Below are positions 24,157 through 35,373 of a stretch of 64,000 bases of DNA, piece by piece. A program made the translations under genes and the position numbers. Origin of the DNA: Rhodomicrobium sp. R_RK_3 (GTDB lineage: Bacteria; Pseudomonadota; Alphaproteobacteria; Rhizobiales; Rhodomicrobiaceae); contig NZ_MWLK01000021.1 of NCBI RefSeq assembly GCF_002198715.1, positions 186,001-250,000 of the forward strand, written 5' to 3'. The stretch's first letter is position 1, and each line of letters starts with the position of its first letter. The notes beneath the pieces are model-generated. The model was not told where the DNA came from and did not search any database. It saw only the letters and a program-made list of their open reading frames with translations.

Positions 24157-25158
24157 TCATGCGGTGCCGTTCTCTAGCTGCCGGGATTGCTCCGCGGCCC
24201 GCAGCCGTCCGCCTTGCGCGGCGGCCAGCTTGTTCATCTTGCGCAGGTCGTAATCGGAAAGCTGCATCGCTACGCAGACCCATTCTTCGACGATGTCGGC
24301 CATTTCCTGAAAGCCGATCGGGAAGCAGCGGCGGCGGGCATTGTAGATGGCGCGCGAGGCGTTGAAGCGGCGCAACAGCCTGCCGAGATGGCGATTCATT
24401 TCGGCACGGCCGGAGCCGCGCGCCACGACCTTCTCGACCAGGTCCATCTCCGCCATTTCGGACGCGCTGTAGAGATCGCCCTGCAGGATCAGGCTTTCCG
24501 TTTTCGCCTGCCCGATCCGGCGCATCAGGAAGGAATAGGCGCCCATGCCGGGAAACAGGCCGTAAAGCATTTCCGGCAGGCCGAACTTGGCCTGTTCCTC
24601 GGCGAAAATGAAGTCGCAGGAGAGGGCCGATTCCATGCCGCCGCCGAGCGCATCGCCCGCCACCAGCGCGCCGACGATCATCGGGGCGTCGAGGCCGCTA
24701 TAATTGGTGAAGCAGACATCGACGCAGCTCAAGGCGTAAGCGCGCAGCCGCTCGTGATCCTTCTGCCGCACCAGCCGCTCGAAATAGCGCAGGTCGCCGC
24801 CGAGATTGAAGATGCCGTCGGTGGCCGAGGCCCAGACGAGGAATTTGGCCAGCTCGGCCGCATCATGCGGCTCGTCGCGGTGAAAATCGTGCAGGGCGCG
24901 CTGGACCGTGCGGATGTCGCGCAAGAGGCGCGGGGCAAAGCTTCCGCCCTCCCGATGCTGCTGAAAGCACCAGATCGTGCAGAGATCGATATCGATCTCA
25001 AGCTTCAGCTCGAACAGATCGAGGCCGCCGAGGATCGTTGCGAGCCGGATGGCGCCCGGATTGTCCCACAGGGTCGGCGGAAGCGGCCGATCGCTGGCGG
25101 CGGCGGCATGCGCCTCATCGGGCCATTGATAGGCAACGCCGTCGACGGAGATTTGCAT
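24157..25158 (-). CDS. rpfF: RpfF-type DSF synthase (crotonase-fold acyl-ACP dehydratase/thioesterase)
   Basis: This 333-residue crotonase-fold enzyme resembles Xanthomonas RpfF closely, not just a generic enoyl-CoA hydratase: F-N-L-G-G-D-L (117-123), A-L-G-G-G-M-E-S-A-L-S-C (170-181), A-E-E (186-188), G-L-P-E-M-L-Y-G-L-F-P-G-M-G-A-Y-S-F (193-210) and W-V-C-V-A-M-Q-L. Glu176 and Glu196 occupy the places of catalytic Glu141/Glu161 with the same 20-residue spacing. RpfF makes cis-2-unsaturated fatty-acid signals from acyl-ACP. The N-terminus is about 35 residues longer than in Xanthomonas. ATG 25158 follows GAGGGAA. It is divergent from two sensor genes, the second RpfC-like. Confidence 0.9.
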   Translation of the reverse strand: MQISVDGVAYQWPDEAHAAAASDRPLPPTLWDNPGAIRLATILGGLDLFELKLEIDIDLCTIWCFQQHREGGSFAPRLLRDIRTVQRALHDFHRDEPHDAAELAKFLVWASATDGIFNLGGDLRYFERLVRQKDHERLRAYALSCVDVCFTNYSGLDAPMIVGALVAGDALGGGMESALSCDFIFAEEQAKFGLPEMLYGLFPGMGAYSFLMRRIGQAKTESLILQGDLYSASEMAEMDLVEKVVARGSGRAEMNRHLGRLLRRFNASRAIYNARRRCFPIGFQEMADIVEEWVCVAMQLSDYDLRKMNKLAAAQGGRLRAAEQSRQLENGTA

Positions 25159-25420
25159 TACGGTTCCCTCGCAAAGTTCATTAACGCAACTTTAAGTGGG
25201 TCGCATTGAAACGCGCCGCAACCAGATGAAAACATATTTTATTAGGTGGAACCATGGACGGAAGCTGCGAGGGTAAATGAACGGAAATATGCGATAAATT
25301 TGAATGAAATTGACCAGCAAATCTTCAGGGGCCGTTGGCCATTCGCCGAGCATGTTTTTGCGGAGTTTGCCAATTGGACTATAAGATTTTCGACATCTAA
25401 AAATCCGGCCGGCGGGCGTG

Positions 25421-27085
25421 ATGTCAATTAGTCATTTCGATATTGGGAAAGCTCCAGATATACTTAAGAAACGGCGCAGGGCTGAAGCATTCGGATCGAC
25501 GGTCGCGATTATCGACGATCTGGAAAGCAATAGGACGTTTCTCGAACATTTGGCGCTGAGGCTGCCTGAGATCCGGCGGGTTTTCACCTTCCAGTCGGCG
25601 AAGATGGCGCTTGCCGTTTTCGAGGCCGACCCGCCCGACCTCATCATCACCGACTTCAACATGCCCGAGATGAACGCGGTGGCGTTCCTGGAGGCCTTGC
25701 GGCAGACGCCGGAGCTGCAGGACGTGCCGGTGATCGTGGTCTCCAGCCATACCGAGACGGAGAACCGCTACCGGGCGCTGCAGGCGGGTGCGACCGACTT
25801 TCTGATGCTGCCCTTCGACACGTTCGAGTTCCAGGCCCGCACGCGCAATCTCTTGAGGCTGAGCCTGCACCAGAAGGCGCTGAAATCGCAGAGCCTTTCG
25901 CTGCACAGCGAACTGGTCGAGACCCGCCATCTATCGATGCAGACACGCGACCGCTTCACCACCATCATCGACAGCGTTCCGGCACTCGTCTTCTCCGTCA
26001 ACACCGCCGGCGAATGCATCTTCGCCAATCAGTTCTGTTTCGATTTTCTCGGCCTTTCCGGCGGGGACGGCCTGCGCGGCTTGCAATTGCTGGCCGGCAA
26101 AATGGCGGGCGGCACCGAGACCGGCCCCGACGGTCTGCCGGTGGCGCGTGAGATCAGCCTGATTGGCCAGGACCAGCTCGAGCATGTCTTCCTGATCGTG
26201 CCGCGTCCGGTGATCTGCACGAAGGAAAAGAAGGATTTCACCGTCTATTCCGGCATCGAGATCACCCGGCTCAAGGAGACGGAGCGCTCGCTACGCCGCG
26301 CCAAGGAGGAGGCCGAGGTCGCCAATCGCGCCAAGAGCGCCTTCCTCTCAAACATGACGCATGAGATCCGGACCCCGCTCAATGCCATCATCGGTTTCAC
26401 CGACATGATCTGCAACGAGTTGCACGGTCCGATCGGCAATGAGCGCTACAAGAGCTACCTGGCCGACGTCCAGTCGAGCGCCAATCATCTCCTCGCCATC
26501 ATCAACGAGATCCTGGATTTCTCGCAGATCGAGGCTAAGCGCCACACCGCCACGCTGACCCGGTTTTCGCTGCGGGCCTGTCTCGCCGAGATCTGCAACC
26601 TGACCAAACACCAGGTCAACCTCAACGGCAATTGGCTGCTGCTCGACGAAATCCCGGACGTCATCATTGAGTCCGACCAGCAAAAGCTTGGCCAGGTGCT
26701 GCTGAATATCGTCACCAACGCCAACAAGGCCGTCTGCAATGACGTCATCCGCATCTCCGCTCTGCGCACGGCGGGCGGCGGGCTGGTGGTCACGGTCCAG
26801 GATCAGGGCATCGGCATGGACGCCGCCGAATTGCAGATCGCCATGACCGAATTCGGGCGCATCTCCCATTCGGCCTTCGTGAGCAACTCGCAACCCGGCA
26901 CCGGGCTCGGCCTGCCGATCTCGATCGCCTTCATGAAGCTTCTCGGCGGCAATCTGGAGATCGAGAGCGAGCGGGGCGTCGGGACGAAGGTGCGCATCTG
27001 CCTGCCGCAGAGCGCCATCTATGAGCGCGAAGGCGTCTGTCCGCCGAGCCAATCCGAGGATAGGGCGGCGGGACTGGAGGCATAG
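25421..27085 (+). CDS. Receiver-PAS-histidine kinase hybrid in the rpfG position
   Basis: 554 residues: an N-terminal receiver (Asp32/33, phosphoacceptor Asp78 in I-T-D-F-N-M-P), a linker helix (140-178), a PAS-like domain (about 179-285, I-I-D-S-V-P-A-L-V-F-S-V), then HisKA with phospho-His314 in N-M-T-H-E-I-R-T-P-L and a HATPase domain (D-Q-G-I-G-M, G-T-G-L-G-L). In Xanthomonas this slot holds RpfG (receiver plus HD-GYP c-di-GMP phosphodiesterase); here no HD-GYP exists. The receiver Lys that normally precedes Pro is Leu130 (F-L-M-L-P-F). The downstream RpfC-like gene begins 2 bp after its stop. GTG 25418 is an alternative start. Confidence 0.88.
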   Translation: MSISHFDIGKAPDILKKRRRAEAFGSTVAIIDDLESNRTFLEHLALRLPEIRRVFTFQSAKMALAVFEADPPDLIITDFNMPEMNAVAFLEALRQTPELQDVPVIVVSSHTETENRYRALQAGATDFLMLPFDTFEFQARTRNLLRLSLHQKALKSQSLSLHSELVETRHLSMQTRDRFTTIIDSVPALVFSVNTAGECIFANQFCFDFLGLSGGDGLRGLQLLAGKMAGGTETGPDGLPVAREISLIGQDQLEHVFLIVPRPVICTKEKKDFTVYSGIEITRLKETERSLRRAKEEAEVANRAKSAFLSNMTHEIRTPLNAIIGFTDMICNELHGPIGNERYKSYLADVQSSANHLLAIINEILDFSQIEAKRHTATLTRFSLRACLAEICNLTKHQVNLNGNWLLLDEIPDVIIESDQQKLGQVLLNIVTNANKAVCNDVIRISALRTAGGGLVVTVQDQGIGMDAAELQIAMTEFGRISHSAFVSNSQPGTGLGLPISIAFMKLLGGNLEIESERGVGTKVRICLPQSAIYEREGVCPPSQSEDRAAGLEA

Positions 27086-27087
27086 CT

Positions 27088-29586
27088 GTGCCGGCTGCCG
27101 CAAGACTGCCCCGATCGCTGCTCGCCAGGGTGATGCCGGCCCTGCGCGCCGTCTGGCGCGGCATCGAGCGGGCCAAGGCGGCCGAGCCTCTCGAATTCGA
27201 ACAGATCCTGATTCGCTACGCGGTCGGCCTCGTCATCACCGTCTACGTGGCCATTGCCTTCGCGCTCGGCGAGCTCGACGGACATTCGGCGCGGGTGATC
27301 GCGACCCTGCTCGCCTGCGCCTGGGGTCTGGGGCTTGCCTTCCTCGTGCATCTTTCGCTTTGGCCGGACCGCCAAATCGAGCGGCGCGCGGCTTCCATCG
27401 TCACCGATGCGATCGAGCTCAGCCTGCTGATGGCCTATGGCGGCAAGTCCGCCGCCATCTTCTTCCCGGTCTATCTCTGGGTTACGCTCGGCAATGGCTT
27501 CCGATTCGGGCTCAATTACATGTATGCCGCCATGGCGCTGAATTGCGGCTCCTTCCTGGTCATGGCGGCGCTCACGCCCTATTGGCGCGATGCCTGGCAA
27601 TTCAGCGCCGGCCTCGCCTTGGCGATCATCGCCATCCCGTTCTACGTCTCCAAGCTGATCCGCAATCTGCGCAGTGCCATGAACGAGGCGGAGGAGGCGA
27701 GCCGGGCCAAGACCGATTTCCTGTCGATGATGAGCCATGAATTGCGCACGCCGCTGAACGCCATTCTCGGCCTCGCCCAGCTCTCGCGGATCACCGCGCC
27801 GAGCGCCAAGGAGCGCTTCAGCGCGGTCTCCACGGAGCTGGCCGCCGGGCGGCTGTTGCGCATGGTCGACACCATTCTGAAATTGCACCGGGTGGAAAGC
27901 GGCGCGGCCGACCGGCAGGACCGGCCCTTCGATCTACTCGACATGCTGAACGAGGTGCGCGCCATCATCGAACCGCTGGCGCGGCAGAAGGGGCTGGATT
28001 TCCGCATCCGCTTCAAGACCGGGCTCGCCGACCAGATCCGCTCCGATCCCGATCATATCCAGACCATCATCCTCAACCTGCTGACCAACGCCGTCAAATA
28101 CACGCCGGACGGCGTCGTCACGCTCGAGATCGCGATGCGCCAGCGCGCGGGCGCCGGGCGCCTGCGCATCGAAGTGCGCGACACCGGGTCCGGTATTCCG
28201 GCGGAGACGCAGGAGCTGATATTCGAGCGCTTCGTGCGCGGCCGCGAGCATGTCGCCTCGGCCGAGCCGGGGGTGGGTCTTGGTCTGTCCTTGTGTAAAT
28301 CGCTGACCGAGTTGCTCGGCGGCACGCTCGGCTGCGAAAGCGTCGTCGGCGCAGGCTCGCTGTTCTGGGCCGATCTGCCGATCTTGCCGGCGGACGACCG
28401 GGTGGGGCCCGCGGCCAAGGCCGCCGCGCCGATCTTCTGGATCGGCGCGCCCGGCTCCCGGGGGGTGCCGCCGACGGTGGATGCCGCGCTGGTGGAGGAT
28501 GCCGCGAGCCTGCGCGACGCGCTCGACGATGACGCGGAGCTCGCCGACGCGGTGCTGGTGGCCGACGCCGCGGCGCTGACGCCCGACATGCGAAAGGTTC
28601 TGCGCGAGGCCATGACGAAGACCGACCGACCGCCGTCGCTGGTGTTGGTGGAGACGGGCGGCGAAGCGGCGAGCGATCTTGCCCCGCTCGCGACCGCCAT
28701 CTTGCGCCGGCGCTCGCAGCGCGAGGTCGCGGCGATGGTTGGCACGGTCGCCCGCTGGCACCGCCGCATCGCGCAGCATCTGGCCGACGAGCCGCCGAGC
28801 GCCATCCCGCTGAAGCGGCGGCTCAAAATCCTGGTCGCCGATGACAACGCCCTCAACCGCGAGGTCACAAGCCGGATGCTGGAGCTCGACGGCCATTCCA
28901 TCGTGCTCGCCGAGACCGGCGACGAGGCGCTGCAGCACATGCTCGACGGCGAGGTCGAACTGGCGCTGCTCGACGTGAACATGCCCGGGTTGAGCGGCAT
29001 CGAAGCCTGCAAAACCTATCGTGCCGGGCTCGGCAGTGGCGCGCGCATCCCGGTCGTCGGCATCACCGCGGATATCTCGGCGCAGACCCGGAAAAACTGC
29101 CTGAAGGCCGGCATGGCGGAGGTGCTGGCCAAGCCGGTAACCTTGGATCAGCTTCGGCAGGCGGTTTCGGCCCACCTCACGGCCCCCGCCGTTGATCCCG
29201 GCGCCGGCATGGCGGCGGAGCGTCCCGGATTGCGGGATGGCGAGCAGCGCATCGCCTTCCTGCGCGAGCTCTTGGGCGAGGAGAAATTCCGCGACCAGTT
29301 CGTCCCCAGCTTCCGGCGCGACGTCGCCCACAGCCTCGATCTGCTGCGCGAGGGGGTCCGCAACCGCCGCGCCAAACTGATCCGCGACGCGCTCCACTCG
29401 CTCAAGAGCAGCGCAAGCACGGCCGGCGCCTCGCAGCTCCACAATACCGCTGCGGCTTTCGAGAAACGCGGCCGGGACGTCGACCTGCCGCGCTGCCAGC
29501 AGGATATCGAGGCGGCGCTGCAGACCTATTGCGATCAGGTCGCCCATGGTGACAGGCCGATCCAGCCGGAAAAGCGGTCGGCTTAA
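27088..29586 (+). CDS. rpfC: RpfC-like membrane hybrid histidine kinase with receiver and HPt
   Basis: An 832-residue DSF-sensor candidate. Four to five membrane helices (45-190) include W-V-T-L-G-N-G-F-R-F-G-L-N-Y, a motif strikingly like RpfC (W-V-T-I-G-N-G). Then HisKA (His217 in M-S-H-E-L-R-T-P), HATPase (D-T-G-S-G-I, G-V-G-L-G-L), an extra 445-565 segment that looks like a degenerate receiver, a true receiver (Asp629 in L-L-D-V-N-M-P-G, Lys682) and a C-terminal HPt with His770 in H-S-L-K-S-S. The start is GTG, 8 nt after GGAGG. RpfC in Xanthomonas binds DSF and controls both RpfF and RpfG. Confidence 0.92.
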   Translation: MPAAARLPRSLLARVMPALRAVWRGIERAKAAEPLEFEQILIRYAVGLVITVYVAIAFALGELDGHSARVIATLLACAWGLGLAFLVHLSLWPDRQIERRAASIVTDAIELSLLMAYGGKSAAIFFPVYLWVTLGNGFRFGLNYMYAAMALNCGSFLVMAALTPYWRDAWQFSAGLALAIIAIPFYVSKLIRNLRSAMNEAEEASRAKTDFLSMMSHELRTPLNAILGLAQLSRITAPSAKERFSAVSTELAAGRLLRMVDTILKLHRVESGAADRQDRPFDLLDMLNEVRAIIEPLARQKGLDFRIRFKTGLADQIRSDPDHIQTIILNLLTNAVKYTPDGVVTLEIAMRQRAGAGRLRIEVRDTGSGIPAETQELIFERFVRGREHVASAEPGVGLGLSLCKSLTELLGGTLGCESVVGAGSLFWADLPILPADDRVGPAAKAAAPIFWIGAPGSRGVPPTVDAALVEDAASLRDALDDDAELADAVLVADAAALTPDMRKVLREAMTKTDRPPSLVLVETGGEAASDLAPLATAILRRRSQREVAAMVGTVARWHRRIAQHLADEPPSAIPLKRRLKILVADDNALNREVTSRMLELDGHSIVLAETGDEALQHMLDGEVELALLDVNMPGLSGIEACKTYRAGLGSGARIPVVGITADISAQTRKNCLKAGMAEVLAKPVTLDQLRQAVSAHLTAPAVDPGAGMAAERPGLRDGEQRIAFLRELLGEEKFRDQFVPSFRRDVAHSLDLLREGVRNRRAKLIRDALHSLKSSASTAGASQLHNTAAAFEKRGRDVDLPRCQQDIEAALQTYCDQVAHGDRPIQPEKRSA

Positions 29587-33031: not shown

Positions 33032-33697
33032 TCAAACTGCCACAGACTTGCGCACCGCACTCCAAGCATTATGCCCATCCGGCCCGATGTCACTTGCCAG
33101 CAGCGCCGCGAACCGGAACAGATGCGACAGCGTGCGTGCGTTCATCTTGCGCATGACGGCGGCGCGGTGATGTTCGGCGGTGCGCGTGCTGATGGCCAGA
33201 CGCGCCGCGACCAGCTTGTTCGGCAGGCCCTCGATGATCAGCGCCATCACCTCGCGCTCGCGCGCCGTCAGCGTCTCGAACAGCTCCCAGGCGAGGCGGG
33301 TCTTGGCGCGGTCGTCGTCGCGCTCGACGAAGCGGCGGCGGGTGTCTTCGACCAGTTCGAGCAAAATTTCCGGGTCGAAGGGCTTTTCGATGAAATGCAC
33401 CGCGCCCGCCTGCATGGCCTCGACCGCCATCGGAATATTGCCGTGGCCGCTGATCATGATGAGCGCGCTTTCGCTGTTGCGGCGCTTCAATTCCTTCAGC
33501 AATTGCAGCCCGCTCATGGCGGGAAGGCAGACATCGACCAAGCCGCAGACCGGCTTGCCCAGCGGCAATGCGGCCAGAAATGGTTCTGCCGCCTCGAAAG
33601 GCTGGCTGGGGATGCCGGATTTGGCCAAGAGCAGCGTGAGCGCCTCGCGGACGCGGGCGTCGTCGTCAATGACATAGACGGGAGGGGCGGTGGTCAT
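33032..33697 (-). CDS. FixJ/NarL-type two-component response regulator
   Basis: The receiver has Asp11-13, phosphoacceptor Asp55 in L-V-D-V-C-L-P, and Lys105 in I-E-K-P-F. The C-terminal LuxR-type helix-turn-helix reads L-T-A-R-E-R-E-V-M-A-L-I-I-E-G-L-P-N-K and I-S-T-R-T-A-E-H-H-R. The receiver and output are arranged as in FixJ/TodT-like proteins. Its start overlaps the stop of the upstream sensor kinase (4 bp), so the two form a cognate pair. Confidence 0.92.
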   Translation of the reverse strand: MTTAPPVYVIDDDARVREALTLLLAKSGIPSQPFEAAEPFLAALPLGKPVCGLVDVCLPAMSGLQLLKELKRRNSESALIMISGHGNIPMAVEAMQAGAVHFIEKPFDPEILLELVEDTRRRFVERDDDRAKTRLAWELFETLTAREREVMALIIEGLPNKLVAARLAISTRTAEHHRAAVMRKMNARTLSHLFRFAALLASDIGPDGHNAWSAVRKSVAV

Positions 33698-35373
33698 CTC
33701 ACTTCATCCTGTGCGGGCAACTCGACGATGAAGCGGGTGCCCTCGCTACCGATGGGCTCCCACCACAGACGGCCGCCATGCAGCGCCACGATCTGGCGGC
33801 TCAGCGCGAGGCCCAGCCCCATGCCGCTATCCTTGGTCGAAACGAAGGGCTCATAGAGCCGGTCGGCGATCTCGGGTGAAACGCCCGCGCCATTATCCTC
33901 GACGATGATCCGCGCTGCCCGCCCCTCCGCCGCCGTCGCAACCAGCACGCGGCCGCGCTTGTCGGCGCGGTCCGACGCCGCATCGACGGCATTGGTGACG
34001 AGGTTCAGCAGCACCTGCTCGATCTGGATGCCGTCGGCCGTCACCGGCGGAACCGGCGCGAGATCGAAGCCGATGCGGACGCTGCGGCCGCGCGCTTCCA
34101 TGCGCAGCACATCGCCGAGCTTCGCGACGAGGGTGGAGAGGTCGGTTTTGGCCGGTTCGCTCTTGCCTTCGGAGATGAAGCCGCGCAGCCGGCCGAGCAC
34201 CTCCATCGCCCGCCGCATCTCGTCGCGAGCGATGGTCAAGCTCTCGACCACTTCCCGCGATTGGCTGTCGGTCCCCGTCGTCTGGCTCAGCGCGACATGG
34301 ATATGCGTCGCGACCGTCGACAAAGGTTGGCTGATCTGATGGGCGATGGCGACGCCCATGGCGCCCGCCGCCGTGTGCCGCCCCATGCGTCCGATCTCGG
34401 CCTGCTGCGCCTTGGCGCGCTCCTGGGAATGGCGCAGCTCTGAGATGGAAGCGCCGAGCAGCAAGCCGGTCGCGGCGAGCGTCAGCATCAGCAATTGCAG
34501 ACCGATGAACTCGGTCGCGGCATAGTTGACGGTCTCGGTGACGGTCAGCAGTGCGATTTGCGCGAACAGGATGGCGAGCGCCGCACCGGAAAAGCCTTCC
34601 CGCACGGCTGCCCAGATCACCGGCAGGAACAAGAGATAGAAGAACTGGTGATCGTCGGTGCGCGGCAGGCCGAACATCAGGCCGAGCGCCAGCGCCAATC
34701 CGGCAGCCACCACGGCGATGTCGACATAGAGCGAGCCGCGCCCGGCTTCGGCGAAATGCGAACGGAGCAGCATGGCGGCCGAGACCGCCGGCATGACGAT
34801 GACGATGCCGAGCGTGTCGCCGACCCAAAAATGGGTGATCGCTGTCAGCAGCCTGTCGCGCGGGATGTCGCCTGTCAGCACCAGCGCGCCGCAAGCCGCA
34901 ATTGCCGTGAACAGCGCAATCGCCGGCCCGAGCGCCAACAGGCTCACCACGTCGCGCAAGCCGCCCCGCCCGAGCTGAAACCCGCTCCGGCGCAGCAAGC
35001 CGGCCAGCACCGTATAGCCGAGGGCAAGCAGCGCGCTGGAGGCGATGGTGCCGAGATTGCTGTGCGGGTCGCCGTGGACGAAGACGCTCGATAAGAGACC
35101 CGCGATGAACAGCAGCGGCGCCCAGGTGAGGCCGCGCGTCAGCAAGAGCACGAGGCTGGCGGCGGGCGAGGGGTTCCACAGGGCGATGTCGAGAAATTCG
35201 AAGGCGTGGAACTGGCTGGACCATTCCAGCGCCAGATAGACCGACAAATAGAGATAGAGGCTGGCGCTGCCGCCCCAGGGCGATCGCAGAAAATCGCGCT
35301 CCAGGGCGCGGAGCCGGTCGGCCGGTTTCACGGCGCCAGGCGGGGCCAGCATGGCGGGGTAGGCTGATGACAT
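33694..35373 (-). CDS. MASE1-type membrane sensor histidine kinase
   Basis: An N-terminal MASE1-like sensory domain has about eight membrane helices (40-310), including N-P-S-P-A-A-S-L-V-L-L-L-T-R-G and H-F-W-V-G-D-T-L-G-I-V. A FixL/DctB-type kinase core follows: phospho-His345 in A-I-A-H-Q-I-S-Q-P-L-S-T, and HATPase motifs with N-A-V-D-A-A, D-N-G-A-G-V and G-M-G-L-G-L. The stop overlaps the FixJ-type regulator start. No PAS or heme domain is seen, so the stimulus is probably membrane-derived and unknown. Confidence 0.9.
   Translation of the reverse strand: MSSAYPAMLAPPGAVKPADRLRALERDFLRSPWGGSASLYLYLSVYLALEWSSQFHAFEFLDIALWNPSPAASLVLLLTRGLTWAPLLFIAGLLSSVFVHGDPHSNLGTIASSALLALGYTVLAGLLRRSGFQLGRGGLRDVVSLLALGPAIALFTAIAACGALVLTGDIPRDRLLTAITHFWVGDTLGIVIVMPAVSAAMLLRSHFAEAGRGSLYVDIAVVAAGLALALGLMFGLPRTDDHQFFYLLFLPVIWAAVREGFSGAALAILFAQIALLTVTETVNYAATEFIGLQLLMLTLAATGLLLGASISELRHSQERAKAQQAEIGRMGRHTAAGAMGVAIAHQISQPLSTVATHIHVALSQTTGTDSQSREVVESLTIARDEMRRAMEVLGRLRGFISEGKSEPAKTDLSTLVAKLGDVLRMEARGRSVRIGFDLAPVPPVTADGIQIEQVLLNLVTNAVDAASDRADKRGRVLVATAAEGRAARIIVEDNGAGVSPEIADRLYEPFVSTKDSGMGLGLALSRQIVALHGGRLWWEPIGSEGTRFIVELPAQDEVR

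Follow-up and report, generated by a model that had tools for sequence, protein, structure and literature searches.

The question raised by a three-gene locus of Rhodomicrobium sp. R_RK_3, at positions 24157-29586 of a stretch of 64,000 nucleotides (contig NZ_MWLK01000021.1; this whole stretch is called the window below), is whether this alphaproteobacterium carries a textbook RpfF/RpfC/RpfG module for diffusible signal factor (DSF) signalling. The initial annotation had proposed a DSF-type quorum-sensing module made of RpfF and RpfC. The RpfF-like enzyme and the RpfC-homologous sensor were both recovered, but the locus is not the textbook one because RpfG, an HD-GYP protein, and its REC-PAS-GGDEF-EAL counterpart are replaced there by a REC-PAS-histidine kinase. 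The gene in question, which comes first in the tandem pair, had been left unidentified and is the unusual part of the locus. Judged from its sequence, the locus is a DSF system with a histidine kinase as the output in the position of RpfG and not a plain RpfF/RpfC/RpfG module.

An RpfF-family enzyme and an RpfC-type sensor

The rpfF-like gene (24157-25158, minus strand) codes for a protein of 333 residues with the crotonase fold of the DSF-family synthases. In a phmmer comparison with solved structures, this protein matched Xanthomonas RpfF 3m6m at 1.4e-47, 7zq7 at 2.4e-47, Cronobacter RpfF 6dgn at 4e-38 and B. cenocepacia DfsA 5fus at 7e-38, the best enoyl-CoA hydratase structure being found at 1.5e-16. 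The NCBIfam model PRK08788 was matched with 290 bits for a cut-off of 177. In a fold search carried out with an AlphaFold model, the best 12 matches were all RpfF or DfsA (E 1e-13 to 1e-15) and the best other crotonase was at 1e-8; with a mean predicted local distance difference test score of 64, and less than 50 in the active-site loops, this model supports the family only. A tree of RpfF with the hydratases of the same genome was saturated (outgroup not on one side, branch lengths of 3-10) and was used neither for nor against the assignment. A first scan of genome contigs with the product of 24157-25158 as sole query returned no match.

The two catalytic glutamates, noticed earlier for their spacing of 20 residues, are in agreement with these matches. 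E176 and E196 stand in the alignment columns of E157 and E177 of chain 3m6m_A, whose numbering is offset by 16 residues, so that they correspond to the E141/E161 catalytic pair of RpfF from Xanthomonas campestris pv. campestris (Xcc). Among 60 homologues, E176 is conserved in 60 and E196 in 59. Moreover, W293 and L311 occupy the columns of W258 and L276 of Xcc RpfF, pocket residues in the RpfF structure. G121 and G173, both invariant, occupy those of G86 and G138, which have been named as responsible for thioesterase activity (PMC9040811). The choice left by the initial annotation between RpfF and the catabolic hydratases falls on the RpfF side in the NCBIfam, PDB sequence and fold comparisons, and 24157-25158 is assigned on this ground to an RpfF-family enzyme and not to an ordinary enoyl-CoA hydratase.

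The rpfC-like gene (27088-29586, plus strand) codes for a hybrid kinase of 832 residues. About five transmembrane helices, as estimated by hydropathy, are followed by HisKA, HATPase, REC and HPt domains (Pfam) without HAMP. The phosphorelay residues H217 of HisKA, D629 of the receiver and H770 of HPt are intact, and the sequence W131-V-T-L-G-N-G137 precedes HisKA. The RpfC layout described before (membrane sensor with W-V-T-L-G-N-G, kinase, receiver and HPt) was thus found again by Pfam and by sensor alignment. The sensor half aligns, including the xxGNGxRxG motif, with RpfC of Xanthomonadaceae-type reference loci, picked by the RpfF equivalog model and the rpfG-rpfC-rpfF gene order; by this alignment, the sensor is homologous to the Xanthomonas RpfC input domain.

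The presence of this sensor was then compared with that of rpfF in 298 genomes of the same order. All 22 strong sensor matches (more than 160 bits) fell within the 38 genomes having a PRK08788-type rpfF (hypergeometric probability of 2e-23, uncorrected for phylogeny), and weaker matches without rpfF occurred in 10 genomes of the sample. Of the eight genomes in the family of R_RK_3, those with rpfF and those with the sensor are the same two. Since strong matches are confined to rpfF genomes and both genes are jointly present in the family, the RpfC-type sensor is tied to rpfF. Three genomes of family f34 have the sensor at a site far away from rpfF (G251 C1:527325, G142 C1:803893 and G170 C4:263322). 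In Inquilinus and a look-alike (L134, L146 and L166), rpfC and the REC-PAS-GGDEF-EAL gene are separated by extra sensor-kinase genes with an RpfC-type input domain; the record of L146 is titled Mycobacterium sp. KBS0706, and this genome, with its Inquilinus-like rpf locus, is probably mislabelled.

The kinase in the position of rpfG

The gene in the rpfG position (25418-27085, plus strand) codes for a protein of 555 residues for which Pfam, receiver and PAS alignment and residue inspection give the architecture REC-PAS-HisKA-HATPase. D79 of the receiver, H315 and the N, G1 and G2 boxes are intact, and no C-terminal receiver or HPt was found on the protein. Its receiver and PAS halves align with the REC-PAS-GGDEF-EAL proteins of other loci up to the linker after PAS, beyond which GGDEF follows in those proteins and HisKA in R_RK_3; by this alignment, the output half has been exchanged on a homologous receiver-PAS half. 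The pairwise alignment with the relative G108 showed a gap of 9 residues behind the N box, which was considered as a lesion of the R_RK_3 kinase and turned out to be an insertion in G108 once more sequences were aligned.

The rest of the genome was searched for a cyclic-di-GMP enzyme of the expected kinds. No Pfam HD_5 (PF13487) match was obtained for HD-GYP, four PF01966 HD-domain matches not being individually typed. No full-length REC-PAS-GGDEF-EAL orthologue was found either: such a query matches other GGDEF-EAL proteins, and its receiver end (from residue 46) is matched within the genome only by the R_RK_3 kinase itself. With neither an HD_5 match nor this orthologue, the search gave no dedicated cyclic-di-GMP partner of either known kind for RpfC.

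The HisKA helices of the kinase carry an xGPxG insert common to three cell-cycle-type kinases of the same genome, and its closest paralogues there are of this type, including a DivL-like protein in which His is replaced by Tyr. These features suggest that the kinase belongs to the PleC/DivJ/PdhS group, a resemblance which is not specific. The members of this group have a similar HisKA helix region with the insert; the R_RK_3 kinase differs from them in being fused to the N-terminal receiver of an rpf locus. Known targets of the group are DivK and PleD (PMC7003649), and a link of the locus to the DivK/PleD circuit is a guess made from the kinase type.

The layout of the initial annotation, with open reading frames at these coordinates and rpfF divergent from two genes 2 bp apart, was confirmed when the coordinates were checked. 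The starts of rpfF and of the kinase gene are 259 bp apart, and inspection of the intergenic region (25159-25417) revealed a weak direct repeat of 10 nucleotides and an imperfect inverted repeat of 13 nucleotides, with no strong promoter match. The rpfC start (27088) is 2 bp past the stop of the kinase gene (27085); a GGAGG ribosome-binding site lies just upstream of its GTG codon (27075-27090, plus strand), inside the 3' end of the kinase gene. This overlap is consistent with a translational coupling of the two genes. At 33032-35373, 3.4 kb downstream and outside the conserved locus, the window also contains a pair formed by a MASE1 histidine kinase and a FixJ-type (REC-GerE) response regulator.

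Distribution and probable age of the REC-PAS-kinase locus

Domains were mapped around about 140 rpfF genes. In the Xanthomonas-type loci of gamma- and betaproteobacteria, rpfG (REC-HD-GYP) is followed by rpfC and then by a convergent rpfF. About 65 alphaproteobacterial loci, a few near-duplicates being counted, mostly have the same order with REC-PAS-GGDEF-EAL at the rpfG position; they occur in Gluconacetobacter, Roseomonas, Ancylobacter, Aureimonas, Pseudovibrio, Sphingomonas and others. The mere occurrence of an rpfF/rpfC-type locus is not a rarity among alphaproteobacteria. No description of such loci was found in the literature searched, an absence which is weak as subscription journals were not covered.

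By Pfam, REC-PAS-HisKA-HATPase occupies the rpfG position in eight loci: R_RK_3; G108, of the same family, whose kinase is 47% identical over the whole protein; L116, a Kiloniellales metagenome-assembled genome (MAG); L181, a Parvularculaceae MAG; and L119, L136, L140 and L141, alphaproteobacterial MAGs of which two are closely related. The divergent rpfF is common to R_RK_3, G108, L119 and L181. In Skermanella aerolata (L155 2608-4131), REC-PAS is followed by a HisKA_2-like stretch (RELHHRVRNNLQ), possibly a further output class, and in L156 and L162 (Acetobacteraceae, Crenalkalicoccus) the protein is REC-PAS only (about 286 residues in L162), without output domain. These additional endings contribute to the picture of an interchangeable output. 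Elsewhere, rpfF lies beside a membrane protein with transmembrane, PAS, GGDEF and EAL segments and no RpfC alongside (L043-L045, L048, L051, L073-L075, L079, L080, L082, L083 and L085); no description of this pairing in alphaproteobacteria was found in the literature.

Trees of the sensor and of the receiver-PAS half were built by a quick method. In the sensor tree, a supported clade unites R_RK_3, G108, L119 and L181, and every receiver-histidine kinase (REC-HK) locus branches close to the base on the alphaproteobacterial side. In the receiver-PAS tree, the REC-HK proteins are again basal, with RpfG on one side and most REC-PAS-GGDEF-EAL proteins on the other. They did not group into a single clade in all trees, with two changes on the receiver tree and four on the sensor tree. 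Because of this basal position in both trees, the REC-HK variant appears to be long established in alphaproteobacteria, rather than something that arose recently by accident in the R_RK_3 genome.

Proposed mechanism and comparison with known DSF systems

Taken together, these results make it probable that the locus is a DSF-type fatty-acid quorum-sensing module with a kinase output. As indicated by its homology and intact active site, RpfF would turn 3-hydroxyacyl-acyl carrier protein into a free cis-2-unsaturated fatty acid. This product or a close relative would be detected by the five-helix RpfC-type sensor, which would autophosphorylate on H217 and relay the phosphate through D629 to H770. 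In Xanthomonas, RpfC relays phosphate via HPt to RpfG (PMC4504480); on this paradigm, and considering the operon and its gene order, HPt of R_RK_3 would phosphorylate D79 of the REC-PAS-kinase in place of RpfG. With its catalytic boxes intact, the kinase would then be switched in its kinase or phosphatase activity towards a separate regulator encoded elsewhere, since it has neither a terminal receiver nor an HPt of its own. It is tentatively conceivable, though rather doubtful, that the locus represents a third core branch of DSF signalling: RpfC would phosphorylate in this way a second kinase of PleC/DivJ/PdhS type, and the self-made signal, bypassing a dedicated cyclic-di-GMP enzyme, would inform the DivK/PleD-CtrA developmental circuit of cell density.

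Several observations weigh against this proposal, which is drawn from sequence comparisons. The RpfF-like protein fails the cut-off of the NCBIfam RpfF equivalog model (200 against 550 bits), a narrow model passed by only 3 of 399 genomes in a sample of the phylum. For the kinase, NCBIfam ranks the BarA and TorS models above PdhS, the resemblance to the PleC/DivJ/PdhS group is weak and seen in many alphaproteobacterial kinases, and no dedicated response regulator adjoins its gene. The sensor is concerned as well. Alanine scanning of Xcc RpfC has highlighted R15, D17, S18, E19 and Q22 as important for DSF sensing (PMC5391125). In R_RK_3, the juxtamembrane segment AEPLEFEQ has A, P, L, E and Q at these five columns, two of which are kept (E19 and Q22) and three changed (R15A, D17P and S18L). 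All five residues are kept in the REC-HK loci L116, L136, L140 and L141, in contrast to R_RK_3; most of them are kept in many loci, and RPDxEH is found in many REC-PAS-GGDEF-EAL loci.

These sensor changes could mean that the ligand of the receptor has drifted away from the RpfF product, rpfF serving membrane or fatty-acid physiology and the genes being neighbours by descent. AEPLEFEQ in place of RxDSEHxQ, present in R_RK_3 and G108 with a similar QSLEFEQ in L119, is compatible with such a drift. However, the segment is conserved and still beside rpfF among genomes of the AEPLEFEQ type, whose proteins otherwise share only 43-50% identity, which argues for an altered, co-adapted specificity and not for decay, and rpfF and the sensor are jointly present or jointly lacking in the family. 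A sensor that has drifted away from the RpfF product is therefore judged improbable. The ligand may not be DSF itself, and the clade of R_RK_3 possibly responds to another fatty acid or to something different. Only marginally better placed, and still unlikely, is a conventional DSF module in which RpfC relays to an unlinked regulator such as a GGDEF-EAL protein and the neighbouring kinase acts as a phosphate sink or a signal splitter. Several PAS-GGDEF-EAL-like proteins of the genome make a cyclic-di-GMP output in trans possible, but the kinase gene stands at the rpfG position of a tight operon with the same receiver-PAS half as the cyclic-di-GMP proteins found there, and the full-length orthologue of the latter is missing from the search results.

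Chance explanations fare much worse. The crotonase fold and a Pfam ECH_1 match would suit an ordinary enoyl-CoA hydratase lying by accident near a hybrid kinase. Against it, RpfF structures lead by about 30 orders of magnitude in the E-values of the sequence search and by about 5 in the fold comparison, the RpfF-family columns are kept and none of the other crotonases of the genome reaches the curated PRK08788 cut-off, so that such a hydratase is very improbable. The RpfF match together with the conserved synteny in dozens of genomes places the locus well beyond chance. An assembly artefact or a chance fusion, in favour of which no evidence emerged, is refuted by the recurrence of the same architecture in G108 and in six further MAG loci, and its likelihood is practically negligible.

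The proposed kinase-output module can be placed among the known DSF systems. With Xanthomonas it shares an RpfF synthase with its catalytic pair, a five-helix RpfC-type HisKA-HATPase-REC-HPt protein with the xxGNGxRxG motif and a receiver-protein gene directly upstream of rpfC. It differs in its receiver protein, which ends in PAS-HisKA-HATPase and not in HD-GYP, in rpfF, which is divergent from the operon start instead of convergent with rpfC, and in the partly changed DSF-contacting residues. The alphaproteobacterial REC-PAS-GGDEF-EAL loci consist of these three genes too, with receiver and PAS halves homologous to those of R_RK_3 and with the same RpfC-type sensor; they have a cyclic-di-GMP module where R_RK_3 has a histidine kinase, and many of them keep RPDxEH. 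The Burkholderia and Cronobacter systems have in common with R_RK_3 an RpfF-family synthase, whereas their receptor RpfR is one soluble PAS-GGDEF-EAL protein and RpfC is lacking. Finally, RpfS of Xanthomonas and PA1396 of Pseudomonas are histidine-kinase DSF sensors, and phosphorelay outputs need not be cyclic-di-GMP enzymes (PMC4504480); they resemble R_RK_3 in tying DSF-family sensing to a phosphorelay output, but are accessory or interspecies sensors, whereas the R_RK_3 kinase belongs to the synthase locus itself and would act after RpfC.

Both described core DSF pathways, RpfC/RpfG and RpfR, work by altering cyclic di-GMP (PMC4504480). A recurrent locus which keeps synthase, receptor and receiver, with a kinase in exchange for the cyclic-di-GMP enzyme, suggests that DSF output is modular, and one would expect such a locus to mediate a DSF-type response that involves no dedicated cyclic-di-GMP enzyme. 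A further outcome of the survey is that rpfF/rpfC-type loci are common among alphaproteobacteria; the receiver-PAS proteins would offer a clean pair for studying the exchange of output domains in signalling.

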